The notes under the pieces are model-generated. The model was not told where the DNA came from, ran no database searches, and was given only the letters and a program-made list of their open reading frames with translations. A program made the position numbers and the translations under genes. Source: Halapricum salinum (lineage in GTDB: Archaea > Halobacteriota > Halobacteria > Halobacteriales > Haloarculaceae). From it: a stretch of DNA of 64,000 bases. The DNA lies in contig NZ_CP031310.1 of the NCBI RefSeq assembly GCF_004799665.1, positions 2,844,887 through 2,908,886 on the forward strand, given 5' to 3'. Of this stretch, positions 39,313 through 51,760 are shown in pieces; positions within the stretch are counted from its first letter, which is position 1, and every line of letters begins with the position of its first letter.

Positions 39313-40749
39313 TCATAACAGCCCCGCATCACGTCCGATAGCCCGCACGGTCGATCGAAGCTCTTTGCTGGTGAACAAGAGCGAGACGGTGTAGGTCAGG
39401 CCACCGACACAGAGGATCGCGATGACATTTCCCCACCACGCTAGCGGTAGCATCGACCTGGCCGTCCACACGACAGCGGCCATCAGCGCACCGCTGACGA
39501 ACTGTTCGATCAGCGGCCGTGGGAGGAGTTCGATCCCTGGAACGAGAGTGCCCACCACATAGGCTCGGAAGAGATACCCAAGAGCTTCGCTGACGACCGT
39601 CGCGGCGACGACACCGATCGGCCCGATCAGGAAGTACAGACCGACGCCCAACAACAGGTTCACGGAGAAGACGACGACAGAGGTTCTGAGATTGAGTTCT
39701 GGTCGGTCCACCCCGTTTATCACCGAGACGAGGATCGATTTCTGTGACCGAAACAGGTGAAACAGCGCTAGTCCGGCGACGAAGGCCCCAGCATCCGCGT
39801 ATTCGCTCCCGAAGAACGTGACCACGACTGGTCGGCCCATCACCAACCCACCGAAAAACAGGGGGACAGCGATCACGCTGGCGTACGCGAGATTGTTCCG
39901 GACTTCCCGTTCGATCTCCTCGCCCTTGCTCTGGAGATTACTGATTCGCCCCATGAGACCACTGCTCGACACGCCCGCAACGAACATCGCCGGCATGGTA
40001 ATCTTCATACTCACTTCGTAATTACCGACGACACTGGTACTGGCCAGCGCACCGAGGAGTAGCACGTCCATTCGATTCTGTGCGGTGCCGACGATACCGT
40101 TCGGGATACTCGACCGGGCGAAAATCCCGATTTGGCGGAGTGAGTCCAGGGACGGGACCCGCGGTCGGGCCCCGATCAGGTAGAGCGCAACCGGTGCGAC
40201 CACGAGGTTCGCGATGACCATCCCACCGACCATCCCCGCGACCCCGTAGCCGCCGAGCACAAACGCCGCCTGTGCGAGGACGCGGATGACGTCCCTGGCT
40301 GCCATCAGCCAGTTGCTCACGCCAAAATATGCAGTCGATTTGAGCACTTCCAATGTCGTGAGATACACGACAACGCCCGAGAACAGCACCGAAACTAGAA
40401 TCCAGCCGTCGGATTGCTCGGTAAGCCTCGCGATCGGGTCGGCGAACACGAACGCCGTTATCGTGACCACGACGATCGAGATGAAGATCCCGATCAGCGT
40501 CGAGCTGACTGCCTCTCCCGACGGAAAGTCGACTTCAGTCAAGCGCTTTCGACACGCATTTGCCCACCCTGTGACAGGATTGTCGAGAAACGAGACGATC
40601 GCCATCAACAGATAGAACGCACCGTATCCCGACGGTCCCAGCAGGCGTGCGAGAAGTATCGCACCGAGGAACGCGACCAGCATCGTCACGACCCGTCCAA
40701 CTACACCGATCCCGACCTGGACGCCGAAGTCCGTGTCTCCGATGCTCAT
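39313..40749 (-). CDS. Lipid-linked oligosaccharide flippase (MATE/Wzx type)
   Basis: A 478-residue polysaccharide biosynthesis flippase with about 14 hydrophobic helices, beginning TDFGVQVGIGVVGRVVTMLVAFLGAILLARLLGPSGYG. Charged and Asp/Arg-bearing loops (ARDVIRVLAQAAFVLGGYGVAG, SSIPNGIVGTAQNRMDVLLLGAL) match RfbX/Wzx-like families. It would move a polyprenyl-linked glycan across the membrane. Its ATG begins 3 bases after the stop of the 42-residue sulfatase-like remnant, and the unit is codirectional with the sulfatase-like and GT4 genes upstream. Confidence 0.92.
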   Translation of the reverse strand: MSIGDTDFGVQVGIGVVGRVVTMLVAFLGAILLARLLGPSGYGAFYLLMAIVSFLDNPVTGWANACRKRLTEVDFPSGEAVSSTLIGIFISIVVVTITAFVFADPIARLTEQSDGWILVSVLFSGVVVYLTTLEVLKSTAYFGVSNWLMAARDVIRVLAQAAFVLGGYGVAGMVGGMVIANLVVAPVALYLIGARPRVPSLDSLRQIGIFARSSIPNGIVGTAQNRMDVLLLGALASTSVVGNYEVSMKITMPAMFVAGVSSSGLMGRISNLQSKGEEIEREVRNNLAYASVIAVPLFFGGLVMGRPVVVTFFGSEYADAGAFVAGLALFHLFRSQKSILVSVINGVDRPELNLRTSVVVFSVNLLLGVGLYFLIGPIGVVAATVVSEALGYLFRAYVVGTLVPGIELLPRPLIEQFVSGALMAAVVWTARSMLPLAWWGNVIAILCVGGLTYTVSLLFTSKELRSTVRAIGRDAGLL

Positions 40750-41913: not shown

Positions 41914-42978
41914 TCACAGGAGGCGTTGGTAAACCGCTGCGTGGGTCGCGGCGATGTCGTCCATCCCGTGGGCAGCCCGGTAGTCCCGCATCGATTCGAG
42001 TACCGGCTGTGGGTCTTCGAGCACCGTTCGCACTCGCTCCGCACCACTGTCGGGGTCGTCGATCGGGAACACCGCCGGGAAGCCGTACTCGGCTGTGAGT
42101 TCCCGGAAGCGCTCCACATCGGTTCCGAGAACCGGGACCTCGTAGGCGAGACACCAGTTCAGTATCCCGCTCTGTGTCACTGATTCATACGGGAGCACTG
42201 CGAGGTCCATCGCGTTGAACAGCGCGTGAAATTCGTCGTCGTCCAATACCCCTGTGACGACGACACCCTCGCCACATCTGGACTGGATCTCGGCCATGTA
42301 CTCCTCGTATTCGCCTTCGTGCGTACCGCCGCCGACGACGAACGTCGCTTCCGGGACTCGTTCGGCGATATCGAGGAACGTGTGATACCCTTTCTGCGGC
42401 CGCACGAACCCCGGTTCGGCGACGATGTCGGTGTCCGGATCGAGCCCGAGCCGATTGCAGGCTTGTTCACGTGACATCGGATGGATGTCGGTCGGAACGC
42501 CGTGGGCGATCACCTCGACGGACGACAGCGACGTGGTCGCCTCGAACGTCTGCCGCGTGTCCTCGGAGAGGAAGATCGCGTAGTCGGCCACGCGTGCCAG
42601 CATCCAGTTGTTGAGGCGGAGATACGTCCACTTCAAACCCACCAACGGCGGCTCGACGGTCTCTTCGCCCCATGCACTGTGGAAGGTGATGACGATCGGG
42701 CGTCTACGGAGCGTCGAGAGGATCCACAGGATCGGAAAGACGAACCAACTCGCGATACTTTTCGGCCCGTAGATATCGTACTCGTGTTGAACGTGAATGA
42801 CGTCGCTGTCCGTCGTCCCCGCCTTCACAGATTGTCTGATGTAATGAACCACGTTGCATGACCGCAATCTCAGCGGCGTTCGGTGGTAGTCGATCTCCAG
42901 AGCGTCCTCTAGAGTCTTCGTGTATGTCGCAATGCCACAATCCTGATCCGGGCCAGTCGCGAAGAGCTCTACTTTCAT
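41914..42978 (-). CDS. GT4-type glycosyltransferase, copy 1
   Basis: A 354-residue GT-B fold glycosyltransferase. The N-terminal half has the acceptor-side LFATGPDQDCGIATYTKTL and VIHVQHEYDIYGPKS; the C-terminal half carries the nucleotide-sugar region PGFVRPQKGYHTFLDIAERV, VVGGGTHEGEYEEY and the E-x7-E-like YESVTQSGILNWCLAYEVPVLG. The latter is not canonical in its second Glu. It heads the minus-strand set (GT4, sulfatase-like A, remnant, flippase). It is divergent from sulfatase-like protein B, with 111 bases between. Confidence 0.92.
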   Translation of the reverse strand: MKVELFATGPDQDCGIATYTKTLEDALEIDYHRTPLRLRSCNVVHYIRQSVKAGTTDSDVIHVQHEYDIYGPKSIASWFVFPILWILSTLRRRPIVITFHSAWGEETVEPPLVGLKWTYLRLNNWMLARVADYAIFLSEDTRQTFEATTSLSSVEVIAHGVPTDIHPMSREQACNRLGLDPDTDIVAEPGFVRPQKGYHTFLDIAERVPEATFVVGGGTHEGEYEEYMAEIQSRCGEGVVVTGVLDDDEFHALFNAMDLAVLPYESVTQSGILNWCLAYEVPVLGTDVERFRELTAEYGFPAVFPIDDPDSGAERVRTVLEDPQPVLESMRDYRAAHGMDDIAATHAAVYQRLL

Positions 42979-43064: not shown

Positions 43065-43089
43065 TGGCTACCACGCACACAACGATTTG

Positions 43090-44079
43090 ATGAGCGTCCT
43101 CGACGGATTACGCTACGCATACCGAGAGATACGCGACAACTACGACGACCGTTTTTGGTGGCGTAATCGATTCTTCCATCGTCTCATCGCGCCGTTCCAC
43201 CTCACTGTGTATCCGACACGGAGCGCTGCGATAGACGTTCCAGAAGCGGACTGGGATACGCTGATCGTTCTCGATGCCTGTCGAACCGATCTCTTCGAGG
43301 AACGGGCGGATGTGGGCAGGTTCGACGAGTACCGCACCGTGACGAGTCGTGGCAGTGCTACCCAAGAGTGGGTCCGTCAAAACTTCGCTGGCAGGTCGTT
43401 CGGTGATATGGTCTACGTGACAGCGAACCCGTTCGTCTCGCGGGAAGCGGGGGATGCCTTCCACGAGATCTACGAACCCTGGGTGAGCGAGTTCGACGAG
43501 GAGACGCGGACAGTTCTCCCGGAGAAGACGACCGAAACCGCGATTCGAGCCCACCGTGACCATCCCGACAAGCGAATCGTCGTCCACTACATGCAACCCC
43601 ACCATCCGTTCGTCACGGCCCCCGAGTTACAGTTTCACGGGTGGCAGATCGACGACTTCGAGGGGTGGAAAGAGAAACAGGAAGAGACAGGGCTGAAAGA
43701 CGACGTGAAGAAGGGGCGCCCACATACGCCGTGGGACGCACTGTATATGGGTCTCGTCTCGAAGGAGGCTGTCTGGGACGCGTACGGGGACAATTTGACC
43801 AGAACGCTGGATTCCGTCTCCGAGTTGCTAGACGAAATCGAGGGACGGACGGTCCTGACCAGCGACCACGGAAACATGCTCGGTGAGCGGACGTTTCCCC
43901 TGCCACTGCAGGTGTACGGTCACCCGTCCGGCATCCGCAATTCCGAACTCGTCGACGTACCGTGGGCAGTCGTCGAGACTGGGCAGCGCCGGACCGTCTC
44001 CGACGACGGAACGGTTACGCAATCGGAGCACGATCAGGAGATGGTTCAAGACCGTCTCGAAGACCTCGGCTACGTCTGA
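43090..44079 (+). CDS. Sulfatase-like (alkaline phosphatase superfamily) protein B
   Basis: A 329-residue paralogue of protein A (40883). Shared blocks: DTLIVLDACRTDLFEE, FDEYRTVTSRGSATQEW, DMVYVTANPFVS, IVVHYMQPHHPF, TVLTSDHGNMLGERTFPLPLQVYGHPSGIRN. Asp and His metal ligands are kept, while Cys-x-Pro-x-Arg is missing. A N-terminal hydrophobic-aromatic stretch (FWWRNRFFHRLIAPFHL) may associate with the membrane. It is transcribed away from protein A, with GT4 genes on both sides. The TTG at 43087 is less likely than ATG 43090. Confidence 0.85.
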   Translation: MSVLDGLRYAYREIRDNYDDRFWWRNRFFHRLIAPFHLTVYPTRSAAIDVPEADWDTLIVLDACRTDLFEERADVGRFDEYRTVTSRGSATQEWVRQNFAGRSFGDMVYVTANPFVSREAGDAFHEIYEPWVSEFDEETRTVLPEKTTETAIRAHRDHPDKRIVVHYMQPHHPFVTAPELQFHGWQIDDFEGWKEKQEETGLKDDVKKGRPHTPWDALYMGLVSKEAVWDAYGDNLTRTLDSVSELLDEIEGRTVLTSDHGNMLGERTFPLPLQVYGHPSGIRNSELVDVPWAVVETGQRRTVSDDGTVTQSEHDQEMVQDRLEDLGYV

Positions 44080-44181: not shown

Positions 44182-45327
44182 CTACGTTCGACTGTCGGCG
44201 TCGGAGAGGTCCACGAACGACCGGTACTCGCTGTCCAGCGTGTTCCGAAGTCGGCGACCAAACGCGTCCACGGAGAATTTGTCCACCCGCTCACGCGGGT
44301 CGCCGTCGATGCCGTCACGCTCGAATCGCTCGATGGCTTCCCGGATCTCGCCTGGAGTCCCGTCGTGAAAGAGCCCGTTTTCGCCCGCAGTCACGAACAC
44401 TGCCGGGAATCCCTCTTCGCGGGTCAGCACGGCCTTCCCGCTGGCGTTTGCCTCGATGGGGACGATCCCGAAGTCCTCGTTGCGACCGTTAAAGACGAGT
44501 GCCCGACAGTTCGACAACAACTCGTACTTGGTCTCCTCGGGCACGAAGCCCCGGTACTCGAGGTTCGGCGCGCGCTCGATGTCGCGCCGGACCGTGTCCG
44601 CAACGTCTCCCGCACCGCCTGCGAGGACGAGTTCGTGATCGGTCCCCCGGAAGGCCGTGACGATCTCGGGAACTCCCTTTTCCTCGTCGAGACGGCCGAG
44701 GTGGAGGTAGTATCCGCGATCCCCGCCAGTTCGGCACGCAGCCAGGTCGACTGGCGGATACACGACTGTCGATTCTCGGTCGTAGTACTTCCGAATTCGA
44801 CGGGCGATGACCGGGCTGTTGGCCAGATAGTGATCGACGCGGGGATCGACAGTCACGTCGCGCAGCCTGAGATATCTGACCAACGGGCGGGCGAGTTGCC
44901 CCGTGAACGAGTCCTTGCGGTCGTGATAGAGGTCGTAGAACCACCGCGGCGGCGAGTGACAGTAATTGATGTGAAGGGTGTCGTCGGGCGTAATTACAGC
45001 CCGGGTCGTCGCGCCCGATGTCACGAGGATATCCGGATCGCCGAACGCCCGCCAGTCGACGTCTTCCCAGAGGGCGTACTCGAAGACACGGCCGACACGA
45101 GACTGGAGGCGTCGAAGCGGCGTCGGAGACAACGACGGTACGACGTCGACAAACTGCACGTCTCCATATGGATTCGGTTCGTCGGGAGACGGGGTGCCGA
45201 TCGTGTACACTGTGTCTTCACCGAGCACGTCGGCGAGATGCGTCACGAGATACTCGGCGCCACCCCAGGCGTTGACGTGCCAGTGGGCGACGGCTACGTC
45301 GAGATCCGCCAGCGCGTCGTCGGTCAT
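44182..45327 (-). CDS. GT4-type glycosyltransferase, copy 2
   Basis: A 381-residue GT-B enzyme. N-terminal VAVAHWHVNAWGGAEYLVTHLADVLG is the classical Gly-Gly-Ala-Glu motif of GT4. C-terminal YYLHLGRLDEEKGVPEIVTAF, LVLAGGAGDVADTV and NGRNEDFGIVPIEANASGKAV form the nucleotide-sugar site with E-x7-E as E-D-F-G-x-x-x-x-E. It likely adds a mannose, glucose or related sugar to a lipid-linked glycan. It is separated by 69 bases from aglG-like, same strand. Confidence 0.94.
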   Translation of the reverse strand: MTDDALADLDVAVAHWHVNAWGGAEYLVTHLADVLGEDTVYTIGTPSPDEPNPYGDVQFVDVVPSLSPTPLRRLQSRVGRVFEYALWEDVDWRAFGDPDILVTSGATTRAVITPDDTLHINYCHSPPRWFYDLYHDRKDSFTGQLARPLVRYLRLRDVTVDPRVDHYLANSPVIARRIRKYYDRESTVVYPPVDLAACRTGGDRGYYLHLGRLDEEKGVPEIVTAFRGTDHELVLAGGAGDVADTVRRDIERAPNLEYRGFVPEETKYELLSNCRALVFNGRNEDFGIVPIEANASGKAVLTREEGFPAVFVTAGENGLFHDGTPGEIREAIERFERDGIDGDPRERVDKFSVDAFGRRLRNTLDSEYRSFVDLSDADSRT

Positions 45328-45396: not shown

Positions 45397-46329
45397 TCAG
45401 TATTTGCGGGCGCCATAGAGGTAGCCCGCGCCGACAGTGCCAGTCAGCACGAACAGCATGACCAACTGGGTAATCGCGGATTTCGACGGTGACGTAACGG
45501 CTGACCGAAACCGTTCCGGGGCGAACTCGGTGAGCAATCGTTCCAGAAAATCGGTCTCTTCGTCGGTCGAATCCTCGACGAAGGTCTCCATCGCCCGCTT
45601 GGAGTAACCCTGCCAGAACGCCCTGTCGAGCAACCAGCGGACGTCTGTTCGATACTCGAATACCTTGTGCGCGACGACCGCCCTCGGGTTGTACCAGACG
45701 CCCTGTCCGTACTCTTTCTGGAGACGTGCACAGAGCTCGGTCTCGCCGCCCTGGAGGTTGGCGTCGCCCTTGCGGCCGCCGATGTCGGTGTCGAATCCGC
45801 CCAATTCGAGGAAGACCTCGCGATCGAACGAGATGTTCGAACCGTTCGTGTTGCGAACCTCGCCGGCTTTCTCGACGTCGCCGTCGGGGCCGAACCCGCG
45901 GTGGGTCACGCCGATCAGCCAGTAGAACTCTTCGGGGAGAAATCCGGGTTTGCCGGCGACCCACTCGGGGACCATCTTCCCGCCGGCTGCGATGGCGCCC
46001 CGATGTTCGTACGCCTCGACGAGTTCGGCGACCCAGTCGGGATCGGCGATAGCGTCGTCGTCGAGAAACGCCACGACGTCGCCGGTCGCGGCGTCGGCAC
46101 CGTGGTTGCGGGCTTCGAGGAGGCCGCGGTTCTCGGGAAGTTCGGTGACGACGGTGTCTCCGTCAGCGCCGAAGTCCCACTCGAACCGTTCTGTGACCTC
46201 GTCGTTGCCGTCGCTGACGAGCACGAGCTCGACGTTCTCGTAGGTCTGGGCGCGGACGCTGTCGGCGGCGTCCAGCAGGTCGTCGTAACGATCCAGCGAG
46301 TGGGTACACAGGACGACCGAGACGCGCAT
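45397..46329 (-). CDS. aglG: AglG-like GT2 glycosyltransferase
   Basis: A 310-residue GT-A glycosyltransferase. VSVVLCTHSLDRYDDLLDAADS, then ENVELVLVSDGNDE, DVVAFLDDDAIADPDWV (the D-x-D) and FDREVFLELGGFDTDIG form the GT2 core. One C-terminal hydrophobic segment (AITQLVMLFVLTGTVGAGYLYG) anchors it. Length and layout resemble AglG of Haloferax volcanii, which adds glucuronic acid to a glucosyl-dolichyl phosphate in the S-layer N-glycan pathway; the exact sugar is not proven. It is divergent from aglB with 157 bases between. Confidence 0.85.
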   Translation of the reverse strand: MRVSVVLCTHSLDRYDDLLDAADSVRAQTYENVELVLVSDGNDEVTERFEWDFGADGDTVVTELPENRGLLEARNHGADAATGDVVAFLDDDAIADPDWVAELVEAYEHRGAIAAGGKMVPEWVAGKPGFLPEEFYWLIGVTHRGFGPDGDVEKAGEVRNTNGSNISFDREVFLELGGFDTDIGGRKGDANLQGGETELCARLQKEYGQGVWYNPRAVVAHKVFEYRTDVRWLLDRAFWQGYSKRAMETFVEDSTDEETDFLERLLTEFAPERFRSAVTSPSKSAITQLVMLFVLTGTVGAGYLYGARKY

Positions 46330-46471
46330 GGGTCGGGGTGGGAGGGCCACGGGCCTAAGCGTTTTCTTCCGAATGCGGTCTGCTCGACTTCCGGCGATCT
46401 GACCTCCCCGAGCGGACAGACTTCATAAGGCTTATGCGCGCCTTGGCAGTTTGACCGGCTAATGAGTACCT

Positions 46472-46486: not shown

Positions 46487-49414
46487 ATGAGCCAAGAGAG
46501 TGACGAAGCGTTCGCAGAGGTAGACGAGGCGCTGGCATGGTTCAAGCAGTGGTATCACGTGCCGGCGCTTTTAGGACTCCTCGTCTTTGCGTTCTGGACT
46601 CGGGCACGGACGTGGGGAAACTTCGTCTCCGGTGGCGAAGTGTATTTCAGCGGAAACGACGCCTGGTATCACCTCCGCCAGGTGAAGTACACGGCCAGGA
46701 ACTGGCCGGAGACGATGCCGTTCGAGGTATGGACGAACTTCCCGACAGGAACCTCCGTATCGCAGTTCGGGACGATCTACGATCAGGTAATCGCCACGGC
46801 CGCATTGGTCGTCGGGCTCGGGAATCCGAGTCAACAGACGATCGAATTAGTCCATCTCTTCGCGCCAGCCGTCGTCGGGACGTTGATCCTGATCCCGACG
46901 TACTACCTCGGCAAGCGACTGGGTAAGAATCGTTTCAGTGGCATCGTTGCAGCTGTGATCGTCGCCCTGTCGAGCGGAACGTTGCTGGCCCGCGGTCTCG
47001 TCGGCTCCGCGGACCACCACGTCGCCGAGGCGTTCACGCAGGCGCTCGCCGCACTCGCAATCGTCGTGGCACTGCAGGTCGCAGACCAGGAAAAGCCCGT
47101 CTGGGAACTGGTCCTCGACCGAGACTATGCGGGGCTTCGCCGGCCAGTCGCCTATGCAGCACTCGCCGGAATCGCGACAGCGCTGTACATGTGGGTCTGG
47201 CCGCCTGGCGTGTTGTTGCTCGGCATTCTTGGCCTGTACGTCACTATTCAGGCTGTCCTGGACCATCTCAAAGGCCGCAGTCCCGAACACGTCCTCATCG
47301 CCGGCGCGGTCCTCTTCGTCGTCACCGCGGTCTTGATGCTGTTGCCCATCGAGCGACTCGACGTCGCACCGGTGAAGTTCTCGCTGCTCCAACCCGGGCT
47401 GGCCTTGATCGGGGCGTTCTGGTGTGCAGCACTGGCCGGTATCAGCCGAATCTGGGACGACCGCTCGTACCCCGAGTGGACGTACGCCGTCGTCGCTTTC
47501 GGCACGATCATCGTCGGGGTCGCCGCGATAGCGCTCCTCGCGCCACGGGTCTACAACCTCTTCTACCAGCAGTTCATCCGTATCTTCGGTCGGTTCGTCG
47601 GACAGAGCCCCTCGGGCGCGGCGGCAACCGTCGCCGAAGTTCGAGCGCTGCCGAACCCACTGGAGACCCTCCAGACGTGGTACGGGTTCGTCCCCTTCAT
47701 CGCGCTCATCGGAGCTGGGCTGGCAGTCGTTCGCTCGGCCATCCTGCAGAAGTCCCGACCCGAGCTGCTGTTCGTCGTGCTGTGGCTGTCGGTGATGTTT
47801 TCAGCCTCGTACACGCAGGCACGATTCAGCTACTATCTCACGGTCCCCTTCGCAGTGATGGCAGCCTACGCGATCGGCACTGGCTTCCAGTATCTCAGCC
47901 AGGCCGCCAGAGAGGCCTCGACGGACGTTCGTCCGTATCAGATCATGGCGGTCGTGACGGTGTTGTTGCTGCTGGTCGTGCCGATGGCCGTCGGCGTGAG
48001 TGGCCAGCAGAGCGACGTCCTCTCACAGTCAGAGACCCGCGAGCCGATCAGCGTGATCAGCTGGGACAGCAGCCTCGACTGGCTGAACGAGAACACCCCG
48101 GACCAGGGCAACTACGGCGGCGAAGGCAACACGCTGGACTACTGGGGTGAATTTGCCAACGTCGACGACTACGATTACCCCGACGGATCGTACGGCGTCC
48201 TCTCGTGGTGGGACTACGGTCACTGGATCACGACCGAGGGCGAGTCTATCCCGGTTGCCAACCCGTTCCAGGAGTCCGCCAGCGACGCCGCACGGTTCCT
48301 GCTGGCCGAGAACGAGACCGTCGCCAATCAGGAAGTCCTCGCGAACATGAGCGAGGGCGAGAACGCCCAGACGCGCTACGTCATGGTCGACTGGCAGATG
48401 GCGACTGGCGGCAGCAAGTTCACTGCACCGCCAGCGTTCGTCGACGACAAGGAAGCCAGCGACTACGTGCAGGGTGTCGGACTGGGACAAGGATACTTCC
48501 TGTACACGCAGGACTACTACGAGACGATGGTCAACCGTCTCTATCGCTATCACGGCAGCGCGATGGACCCACAGCCGATCGTGACGCGCTGGGGTGGTGG
48601 TCAGGACACCCAGCTTCTCCAGACCTACAGCAGTATGAACGCTGCACGAGCCGCGGTCAACAACTCGACGGCCGCGCAGGTCGGTGGGTTCGGTCCGTAT
48701 CCGAGCGAGCGCGTGCCGGCGCTGGAACATTACCGACTGGTCCAGGTCAGCGACCGGACGATCAACCCACTCCAGGCGTCTCACAACCGACTGATCAGAT
48801 TGTATCAGCAAGGGCTCGATCTGAGCCAGTTCGGGCTCAGTCCTCAGCGAACGCTGCAGCTGTCAGAGCGTAACCCCCACTGGACGAAAGTCTTCGAGCG
48901 CGTCCCCGGCGCGACCATCGAGGGGCAGGGGCCGGCCAACGCGACAGTCACGGCGACCGTCGAGATGCGGATCCCGAACACCAATCGGACCTTCCCGTAC
49001 TATCAGCGCGCCCAGACGAACGCCGACGGCGAGTTCACGATGACCGTCCCCTACGCCTCGACCGGCGCGGACGAATGGGGCCCGGACAACGGATACACCA
49101 ACACGAGTGTCCGTGCGACCGACTCCTATCAGTTCGCAGCACAGCAGTACTCGCTGGTGAACGGATCGGTCGAGATGGCCTACTACAACGCTACCGAGGA
49201 CGTGACCGAAGCACAGGTCATCGGTGAAGACGACTCGCCGGTCGAGGTGACGCTGACCGAGGTCGACCTCCCGGACCAGAACCAGACCAACGACACCACA
49301 GACGGATCAGGCGATAACTCCAGTGACGACGACCAGAACAGCGGGTCCAGCTCGATCGAACCCGTCTTCGACGCGGTCGAGCCTCAGATCCCCGCGGTCA
49401 GAGTCGCAGGCTAA
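46487..49414 (+). CDS. aglB: Dolichyl-phosphooligosaccharide-protein glycotransferase AglB
   Basis: The archaeal oligosaccharyltransferase, moving a lipid-linked glycan onto Asn-x-Ser/Thr sites of S-layer and pilin proteins outside the membrane. The 975-residue protein has about 13 N-terminal membrane helices. The first-loop D-A-W-Y-H (D58) and the DHH in GSADHHVAE supply catalytic acidic and metal residues. The C-terminal globular domain has WWDYGHWI at 574-581, the signature of STT3/AglB. A mucin-like Thr/Asp/Ser tail ends the protein. aglB is followed after 2 bases by a DUF368 gene and preceded, divergently, by aglG. Confidence 0.98.
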   Translation: MSQESDEAFAEVDEALAWFKQWYHVPALLGLLVFAFWTRARTWGNFVSGGEVYFSGNDAWYHLRQVKYTARNWPETMPFEVWTNFPTGTSVSQFGTIYDQVIATAALVVGLGNPSQQTIELVHLFAPAVVGTLILIPTYYLGKRLGKNRFSGIVAAVIVALSSGTLLARGLVGSADHHVAEAFTQALAALAIVVALQVADQEKPVWELVLDRDYAGLRRPVAYAALAGIATALYMWVWPPGVLLLGILGLYVTIQAVLDHLKGRSPEHVLIAGAVLFVVTAVLMLLPIERLDVAPVKFSLLQPGLALIGAFWCAALAGISRIWDDRSYPEWTYAVVAFGTIIVGVAAIALLAPRVYNLFYQQFIRIFGRFVGQSPSGAAATVAEVRALPNPLETLQTWYGFVPFIALIGAGLAVVRSAILQKSRPELLFVVLWLSVMFSASYTQARFSYYLTVPFAVMAAYAIGTGFQYLSQAAREASTDVRPYQIMAVVTVLLLLVVPMAVGVSGQQSDVLSQSETREPISVISWDSSLDWLNENTPDQGNYGGEGNTLDYWGEFANVDDYDYPDGSYGVLSWWDYGHWITTEGESIPVANPFQESASDAARFLLAENETVANQEVLANMSEGENAQTRYVMVDWQMATGGSKFTAPPAFVDDKEASDYVQGVGLGQGYFLYTQDYYETMVNRLYRYHGSAMDPQPIVTRWGGGQDTQLLQTYSSMNAARAAVNNSTAAQVGGFGPYPSERVPALEHYRLVQVSDRTINPLQASHNRLIRLYQQGLDLSQFGLSPQRTLQLSERNPHWTKVFERVPGATIEGQGPANATVTATVEMRIPNTNRTFPYYQRAQTNADGEFTMTVPYASTGADEWGPDNGYTNTSVRATDSYQFAAQQYSLVNGSVEMAYYNATEDVTEAQVIGEDDSPVEVTLTEVDLPDQNQTNDTTDGSGDNSSDDDQNSGSSSIEPVFDAVEPQIPAVRVAG

Positions 49415-49416
49415 CC

Positions 49417-50397
49417 GTGGCGGGCGACACCCAGCAGGATACGGCGGTCGCTGTCAGCGCGTCCGTCCAGCAGCTGGTAACGGTCTATCTGAAGGGGCTG
49501 GCGATGGGCGCGGCCGACTCCGTCCCTGGGGTCTCCGGCGGAACGATCGCGTTCATCACGGGGATCTACGAGCGGCTGATCACGGCGATCACGCGCCTCG
49601 ATCCGACAGCAGTGTTCCTGCTGGCCGGCGTCCACCGTCGTGAGGGCCGGCGGCGCTTCTACGACCGACTGCTGGAGATGGACGTCCCGTTTCTGCTGGC
49701 ACTGGGCCTCGGCGTCGTCAGCGCCATCGTCACCGTCTCTCGGGTCATGCACGCCGCACTCCAGGAGGCAGAAGCGCTCACCTTTGCTTTCTTTTTCGGA
49801 CTGATCGCTGCCTCGGCGGTCGTCCTCTACGAGCACATGGCCGTCGATACGCCCGGCCGGATCGCTGCGGCGGTTGCGGGCTTCGCGATCGCGTTTCTGG
49901 TTTCGGGAGTCACCTCCGGTAGCGACGTCGCCCACACCGTACCGATCATCTTCGTCGCGGGATCGATCGCGATCGTCGCGATGATCCTGCCGGGCGTTTC
50001 GGGGGCGTTCTTCCTCGTATTGTTCGGACAGTACGAGTACCTGACTGGTGTCCTCACGTCGTTCGTCGACGGCGTGCTCGCCGTCGTCGTCGGTGATCGT
50101 GCGATCGGATCACTCGCCGACGCCGCGACGACAGTGTTCACGTTCGGTCTCGGTGCGATACTCGGGCTCTTCACCATCGCGCATCTGATCAGGTGGGCGC
50201 TCGACAACTACCGCGTCGCGACGCTGTCGTTTCTGGTGAGTCTGATGGTCGGTGCGTTGCGACTGCCCGTCGAGCGCGTACTGGATACGGACCCGACACT
50301 CGCAGCCGGGTCGGTGTTGCCGATCGTCCTCGCCGTCGCTATCGGTGGCGGTGTAGTGTTGCTGCTGGATTACTTCACCGACGACCTCGCGTACTGA
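49417..50397 (+). CDS. DUF368 / PopT-type polyprenyl phosphate transporter
   Basis: A 326-residue polytopic membrane protein beginning with GTG. The two internal repeats each contain the family hallmark: ADSVPGVSGGTIAFITGIYE near residue 40 and MILPGVSGAFFLVLFGQYE near residue 200. Bacterial DUF368 (PopT) proteins return undecaprenyl phosphate to the inner leaflet. Starting 2 bases after aglB, it is in the same transcript and is an attractive candidate to recycle dolichyl phosphate released by AglB. That archaeal role is an inference from neighbourhood and family. Confidence 0.9.
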   Translation: MAGDTQQDTAVAVSASVQQLVTVYLKGLAMGAADSVPGVSGGTIAFITGIYERLITAITRLDPTAVFLLAGVHRREGRRRFYDRLLEMDVPFLLALGLGVVSAIVTVSRVMHAALQEAEALTFAFFFGLIAASAVVLYEHMAVDTPGRIAAAVAGFAIAFLVSGVTSGSDVAHTVPIIFVAGSIAIVAMILPGVSGAFFLVLFGQYEYLTGVLTSFVDGVLAVVVGDRAIGSLADAATTVFTFGLGAILGLFTIAHLIRWALDNYRVATLSFLVSLMVGALRLPVERVLDTDPTLAAGSVLPIVLAVAIGGGVVLLLDYFTDDLAY

Positions 50398-50461: not shown

Positions 50462-51760
50462 ATGGGAACACTACGAGAGTGGGCCGGACGAGTCGGTTTC
50501 CTCGCGATTTCAGTCCTGGTCCTCGCTGGCGGATACGTCCAGGGATTCTGGGCAGTGGGACTCTCGGTGGATCAGCCACCGCTGGTCGTCGACCTGCAGT
50601 TCATCGAAGCGACCTTCGCGATGACGACGTTCGCGGGCTTCTTTCTGGTCTCAGGGCTGCTCTTTCTGTGGCACAGCTACCGGGACGGCGAACCCGGGAT
50701 CGCAACCGATGGTGGCCACGTGGCCGCACTGGTCCCAGTTTACGACGACGCGGGCGTACTCCACCGCAGCGTCGAGAGTCTACTCGCTTCGACTTACGAG
50801 AACCTGACCGTCTGGGTCGTCTACGAGTCCGACGATCAGCCGAGCAAGCAGCGAGCACACGAACTGGCCGACGACCACGAACGCGTCGAAGCCCTGGAGA
50901 ACACGAAGTATCCGGGATCGAAAGCCGGCGCGATCAACTACGCGACCGAGATCGTCGACGCCGCGTTCGTCGCCGTCTTCGACGCCGACGAGCGGATCCA
51001 CCCGCGGTTCGTCGCGGCCGCCGTCGCCGAACTCGACGACTGTGACGTCGTCCAGGGGCGGACGATCCCCGACCCGACTGGCGTGATCGAGTCGATCGCC
51101 TACTACGAGTCGGTCCTCCTGAACTTCGTCGCCCGGCGCGGACTCTACGTGGTCACCGACTTTCGGATGGCCGCCTCGCGTGCAGTCGTCATGCATCGGG
51201 AGGCGCTGGTCGAGACTGGCGGGTATCACACCGAGATGCTGACCGAGGACTTCGAGTTCGCCTATCGGTGTTACAAACATCGACTGGACGTGGTCGAACT
51301 GCTGGCGTACCCCTCCAAGATCGAGGGCGCACACACGTTGCGGGACTGGTGGGGCCAGCGCAAGCGCTGGATGACGGGCTACGCCCAGTCATCCCACTAC
51401 CTCCTCGGAGAGAGTCGACCGCTGACGGACTACCGCAATCCGCTCTCGGCGCTGATCGCGCTCGGGACCGTCGCGGCAGGGTTGTTCTTGCTGTCGGTCA
51501 TCTCGAAGTTCGCCGTCCTGGCCGTCGACGGCGGATTCGACGTTCTGATCGGTGGACTGGCAATCGTCATCGCGATCACACTCGCGGTCCAGATCCAGGA
51601 TTACTGGCAGGGGTCGATCGACGCCTTCGGGCTGACGTGGCTGGCGATTCCCCTGCTGTTCCCGCTGTACAGTCTGGTCGCTATCAAGGCGCTCGTCGAG
51701 TACCTCTTCACCTGGGAAGGCGAGTGGTACAGCGTCTCGAAAGGCGTCTCGGCCGACTGA
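50462..51760 (+). CDS. Processive membrane GT2 glycosyltransferase
   Basis: A 432-residue GT2 enzyme of the cellulose synthase/hyaluronan synthase type. Two N-terminal membrane helices, then the cytosolic catalytic domain: ALVPVYDDAGVLHRSVESLL, FVAVFDADERIHP (D-x-D), MLTEDFEFAYR (T-E-D base) and WGQRKRWMTGY (Q-x-x-R-W, here QRKRW). At least three C-terminal membrane helices follow (SALIALGTVAAGLFLLSVIS, VLIGGLAIVIAITLAVQI, LTWLAIPLLFPLYSLVAIK). It could build a polysaccharide or add to a lipid-linked glycan next to AglB. It starts 64 bases after DUF368. Confidence 0.92.
   Translation: MGTLREWAGRVGFLAISVLVLAGGYVQGFWAVGLSVDQPPLVVDLQFIEATFAMTTFAGFFLVSGLLFLWHSYRDGEPGIATDGGHVAALVPVYDDAGVLHRSVESLLASTYENLTVWVVYESDDQPSKQRAHELADDHERVEALENTKYPGSKAGAINYATEIVDAAFVAVFDADERIHPRFVAAAVAELDDCDVVQGRTIPDPTGVIESIAYYESVLLNFVARRGLYVVTDFRMAASRAVVMHREALVETGGYHTEMLTEDFEFAYRCYKHRLDVVELLAYPSKIEGAHTLRDWWGQRKRWMTGYAQSSHYLLGESRPLTDYRNPLSALIALGTVAAGLFLLSVISKFAVLAVDGGFDVLIGGLAIVIAITLAVQIQDYWQGSIDAFGLTWLAIPLLFPLYSLVAIKALVEYLFTWEGEWYSVSKGVSAD

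Follow-up and report, generated by a model that had tools for sequence, protein, structure and literature searches.

A DUF368 membrane protein encoded immediately downstream of aglB is the best candidate for dolichyl-phosphate return in Halobacteria

The aglB locus described here raises the question of how haloarchaea recover the lipid carrier that is set free during N-glycosylation. In Haloferax volcanii, dolichol phosphate serves as the lipid on which the glycan is assembled before flipping and transfer by AglB, and the donors are dolichol monophosphates (PMC3871713). The chemistry of such donors means that AglB would leave dolichyl phosphate outside, and hence that the lipid must be returned or replaced. 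The return of undecaprenyl phosphate is an established activity of bacterial DUF368 and DedA proteins, and an earlier note on this DNA had put forward the DUF368 gene next to aglB as encoding the dolichyl-phosphate recycler.

The window, i.e. the whole 64,000-nt stretch analysed, contains aglB at 46487..49414 (+), which ends in a TAA stop and encodes an archaeal oligosaccharyltransferase of 975 amino acids. Its membership in the AglB family is evidenced by a score of 798 bits on TIGR04154 archaeo_STT3 (cut-off 450), matches to the Pfam AglB_core-like and AglB_L1 domains, and the catalytic motif WWDYG at residue 574. Direct reading of the sequence placed a spacer of two bases, CC, at 49415..49416 (+), followed by the GTG of the DUF368/PF04018 gene at 49417..50397 (+), the product of which is a membrane protein of 326 amino acids and the proposed dolichyl-phosphate translocase. 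The distance of two bases between the aglB stop (49414) and the DUF368 start (49417), as given in the earlier note, was therefore correct. The putative GTG is the first start possible after an in-frame stop, and many orthologues likewise begin between −4 and +7 nt relative to the end of aglB. DUF368 and AglB (above its cut-off) each occur once in the whole one-contig genome of 3.45 Mb, and by our own estimate for about 3,400 genes, immediate same-strand adjacency of two given genes by chance would be of the order of 1e-4. The spacing suggests that aglB and DUF368 form an operon. Output of a bacterial-style promoter scan of the window was set aside, since such scans do not apply to archaea.

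Judged by the predicted products, the genes flanking this pair are an N-glycosylation-type cluster. Divergent from aglB is a gene for an AglG-type glucuronosyltransferase at 45397..46350 (−), which scored 482 bits on NF041394 (cut-off 440); beyond it are two GT1 glycosyltransferases identified by Pfam match, at 44182-45327 (−) and 41914-42978 (−), and a polysaccharide-flippase-type (Wzx/AglR-like; PF13440/PF01943) protein at 39313..40749 (−) that is a candidate outward glycolipid flippase. On the other side, a glycosyltransferase matching Pfam GT2 families is encoded 64 nt 3′ of DUF368, at 50462..51760 (+). A sulfatase-like protein (43087-44079, +), with a weak PF00884 match below the cut-off, is also encoded within the cluster.

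The family of the DUF368 protein named in the earlier note was borne out by a score of 217.3 bits (cut-off 26) on Pfam PF04018, currently named 'Undecaprenyl phosphate translocase-like', over profile positions 1-226 of 246. Like PopT and VCA0040, it hence belongs to this Pfam family with a high score over most of the profile; unlike them, it fell below both NCBI equivalog cut-offs of 400, scoring 190 bits on NF052564 (V. cholerae-type polyprenyl-phosphate transporter) and 84 bits on NF052563 (PopT). We therefore assigned it to the Pfam family and to neither equivalog, and these bit scores were counted against its reading as a dolichyl-phosphate translocase. It further differs from its bacterial relatives in being archaeal, so that its carrier would be dolichyl phosphate, and in sharing its locus with an oligosaccharyltransferase gene in a cell that lacks peptidoglycan. 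Its two halves are homologous to one another (hhalign probability 98.2%, E 6e-14), which is a usual mark of membrane transporters, and each half carries a PGxSG motif: PGVSG at residues 37-41 (49525..49539, +) and PGVSG again at residues 192-196 (49990..50004, +) in the second half of the duplication. P37, G38, S40 and G41 as well as P192, G193, S195 and G196 are invariant in all 109 DUF368 proteins compared, including types A and B (defined below) and those of other archaea. A sequence search for a relative in the PDB returned none, and a predicted structure with a mean pLDDT of 38.6, made from an alignment of the window protein and one relative only, was not used as evidence.

Conservation of the pairing across Halobacteria, which the earlier note had named as a point to check, was then surveyed in 292 genomes of the class. 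At least one copy of DUF368 was present in 289 of them and AglB, at a strict threshold, in 284. The seeming absence of AglB from several genomes, for instance those of one genus, is at least partly an effect of this threshold, since the AglB of a relative of that genus scores in two pieces. One near-complete genome with AglB had no detected DUF368, and this was counted against the dolichyl-phosphate-return reading. Gene positions were compared in 80 genomes, comprising one for each of 76 genera and four extra. In 52 of the 76 genera, DUF368 followed aglB on the same strand within a distance of 4 kb, most pairs being 0-100 nt apart, and order and strand were identical in all 54 near pairs. A single scan of genome contigs yielded one relative, from Halorhabdus amylolytica, in which DUF368 is also linked to aglB with a gap of −4 nt. 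The pairing is therefore real and widespread in Halobacteria. In about a third of the genera an aglB-linked DUF368 was absent, which also counted against the proposed role.

Among the 59 linked loci that were fetched, the distance from aglB to DUF368 was at most 250 nt in 52, and the aglB stop and DUF368 start were no more than 10 nt apart in 34 (two of these via over-long open frames); for control, 21% of the remaining same-strand gene neighbours at these loci were this close, according to our own gene calls with crude starts. The neighbours of the pair varied from locus to locus: the commonest gene family after DUF368 was found in only 8 of the 59, and a GT2-type gene, the commonest next upstream of aglB, in 26. 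Gene order on the flanks has hence been reshuffled while the pair itself persisted. In four loci of one family, aglM on the opposite strand sits between aglB and DUF368, and in another locus aglF does so.

A tree of 89 DUF368 proteins contained a clade of 24 (SH-aLRT 99), all of them unlinked to aglB, that was split from the remaining 65, of which 59 are linked. We refer to the former as type B (loci L086-L113 except L091, L098, L105 and L108) and to the latter as type A; their mean identities to the window protein are 38% and 49%, respectively. The linked or unlinked label changes about seven times on this tree, and the 52 linked genera are not 52 independent events, owing to common ancestry. 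Three genomes carry a linked type A together with an unlinked type B, and many carry type B alone, which stands in for the linked type A there. Since hardly any genome is without DUF368, type B can probably replace type A. A search of the type B neighbourhoods for a functional clue (chaperonin, GT2 and other genes) found no family common to more than 8 of the 24.

Outside Halobacteria, DUF368 was found in 34 of the 199 genomes sampled in the phylum, and in none of these 34 was it directly adjacent to aglB, which makes adjacency a halobacterial trait. In four genomes of one family within the same phylum, aglB and DUF368 share a strand at a distance of 12-15 kb, which suggests a looser link between the two genes outside the class. 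The window genome itself also encodes three diverged AglB/STT3-like proteins with STT3 and AglB_L1 domains, one with an additional Laminin_G_3 domain, near 388 kb (L003, 619-3237, +), 3,239 kb (L004, 871-3018, −) and 2,192 kb (L005, 337-3297, −); a simple pattern search did not find WWDYG in any of the three. These may be candidates for a second oligosaccharyltransferase, like that reported for the low-salt glycan of H. volcanii.

A connection to published experimental data was provided by the locus tags of H. volcanii. According to Sit et al. (2022; PMC9876793), who mention dolichol phosphate, the alkaline growth defect of a V. cholerae delta-vca0040 mutant is at least partly complemented by HVO_RS12060, the DUF368 protein of H. 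volcanii. In two other papers, aglB is HVO_RS12050 (PMC7749143, PMC5131992), and the RefSeq tags step by five through aglF (12035), aglI (12040), aglG (12045) and aglB (12050) (PMC7749143). With such steps, a single tag falls between HVO_RS12050 and HVO_RS12060. The gene in this position is presumably aglM, based on the order aglB-aglM-DUF368 in related genera, where the intervening gene scored 746-757 bits as AglM (cut-off 670). Judging by these tags, the complementing protein is very probably the aglB-linked orthologue of the window protein; both are haloarchaeal DUF368 proteins close to aglB, with the difference that the H. volcanii gene, two locus tags away, has one putative aglM before it, whereas the window pair is 2 nt apart. 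Combining the three papers, the aglB-linked orthologue would already have displayed the activity of the family in bacteria, a link that is not drawn in the available text of any of them (PMC9876793, PMC7749143, PMC5131992).

Taken as a mechanism, glycans would be assembled on dolichyl phosphate in the cell and then flipped outward, AglB would move the glycan to protein and leave dolichyl phosphate in the outer leaflet, and the DUF368 protein would bring the lipid back to the inner (cytoplasmic) leaflet for reuse. Given that the donors in H. volcanii are dolichol monophosphates, DUF368 would be able to accept what AglB releases directly, with no phosphatase step. We consider it likely that the window protein belongs, as a haloarchaeal member, to the PopT/VCA0040 superfamily of polyprenyl-phosphate translocases, is encoded in an operon with aglB and returns the dolichyl phosphate freed by AglB to the cytoplasmic leaflet. 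Dolichyl phosphate as the substrate, the inward direction in archaea, co-transcription and the size of the DUF368 share in recycling are what we infer; our literature search found no archaeal DUF368 knockout or lipid-flipping data.

The main competitor overlaps this explanation and differs in scope: DUF368 would be a general recycler of polyprenyl phosphate, serving exopolysaccharide, glycolipids and Dol-P-sugar donors, with its place next to aglB giving co-expression only. All polyprenyl-phosphate pathways share one carrier, type B copies away from aglB seem capable of standing in for type A, and a GT2 gene comes after DUF368 in the window, all of which make this a substantial possibility, if somewhat short of an even one; what it leaves unexplained is a link to aglB that is tight and recurrent, in the absence of any other constant neighbour. 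Another division of labour, in which type A serves AglB alone and accepts dolichyl phosphate straight from the oligosaccharyltransferase, perhaps in a complex, and type B is a general recycler able to take over upon loss of type A, is speculative and we regard it as rather doubtful. Dolichyl phosphate might instead be recycled mainly by UptA and other DedA/VTT-domain proteins (PF09335), leaving DUF368 as an auxiliary conditional on salt or pH. These share the proposed job of returning a lipid phosphate carrier but belong to a different Pfam family and are encoded by separate genes, at three loci in the window genome. Their presence in 24 of 25 haloarchaea checked, the conditional division of labour in V. 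cholerae (PMC9876793) and the interchange of DedA and DUF368 in Pseudomonas (PMC12893004) favour such a role, and DUF368 need not be the sole recycler; yet DedA copy number varies from 0 to 5, while DUF368 is nearly universal in the class and tied to aglB, and we judge a main role for DedA to be unlikely.

The position beside AglB would also suit an outward flippase that feeds Dol-P-linked glycan to AglB, and for the H. volcanii lipid-linked tetrasaccharide PMC3871713 names no flippase, AglR being given for Dol-P-mannose alone. AglR/Agl15 and Wzx-type flippases, which have been put forward as moving Dol-P-linked sugars during N-glycosylation in haloarchaea (PMC3871713), are of a different family from DUF368 and act outward on the loaded lipid. 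The cluster already contains the Wzx-type flippase gene noted above, and the H. volcanii orthologue partly makes up for the loss of DUF368 in a mutant with impaired undecaprenyl-phosphate recycling (PMC9876793), making outward flipping by DUF368 very unlikely. We give even less credence to the adjacency being an inherited accident devoid of a functional link: linkage is clustered on the tree rather than gained many times independently, but the pair was kept across many genera and families while its flanks were reshuffled, and in over half of the linked loci no more than 10 nt separate stop and start. The aglB-linked DUF368 protein hence stands as the best candidate for the return of dolichyl phosphate. 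The idea in the earlier note was mostly supported, by the family, the operon-like spacing, the class-wide pairing and the aglB link of the H. volcanii orthologue by tag; it had missed that about a third of the genera are unlinked, mostly with a separate subtype, and that DedA proteins are present as well.

Its novelty held only in part. The role had been said to be one not assigned in archaea, but a haloarchaeal DUF368 protein had already been tested by complementation, in a paper that also mentions dolichol phosphate (PMC9876793). Both the family of the transporter and its probable function had largely been known before; the operon link to aglB is good and testable. A literature search returned no paper with both DUF368 and aglB, and among the best matches of a wider search none ties PopT to archaeal N-glycosylation. 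Roney and Rudner (2023) are reported to have used synteny, and the aglB link may thus have been published already.

The accounts of archaeal N-glycosylation that we found assign no protein to the return of the lipid carrier. Since DUF368 is linked to aglB, and the complementing gene is very probably the one with this link, what was a general suggestion now points to a single named gene in a tractable archaeon. The split between types A and B means that strains naturally carrying one type, the other or both can be compared. Dolichyl-phosphate recycling in general would be touched upon as well: eukaryotes use the same lipid, to our knowledge without DUF368.
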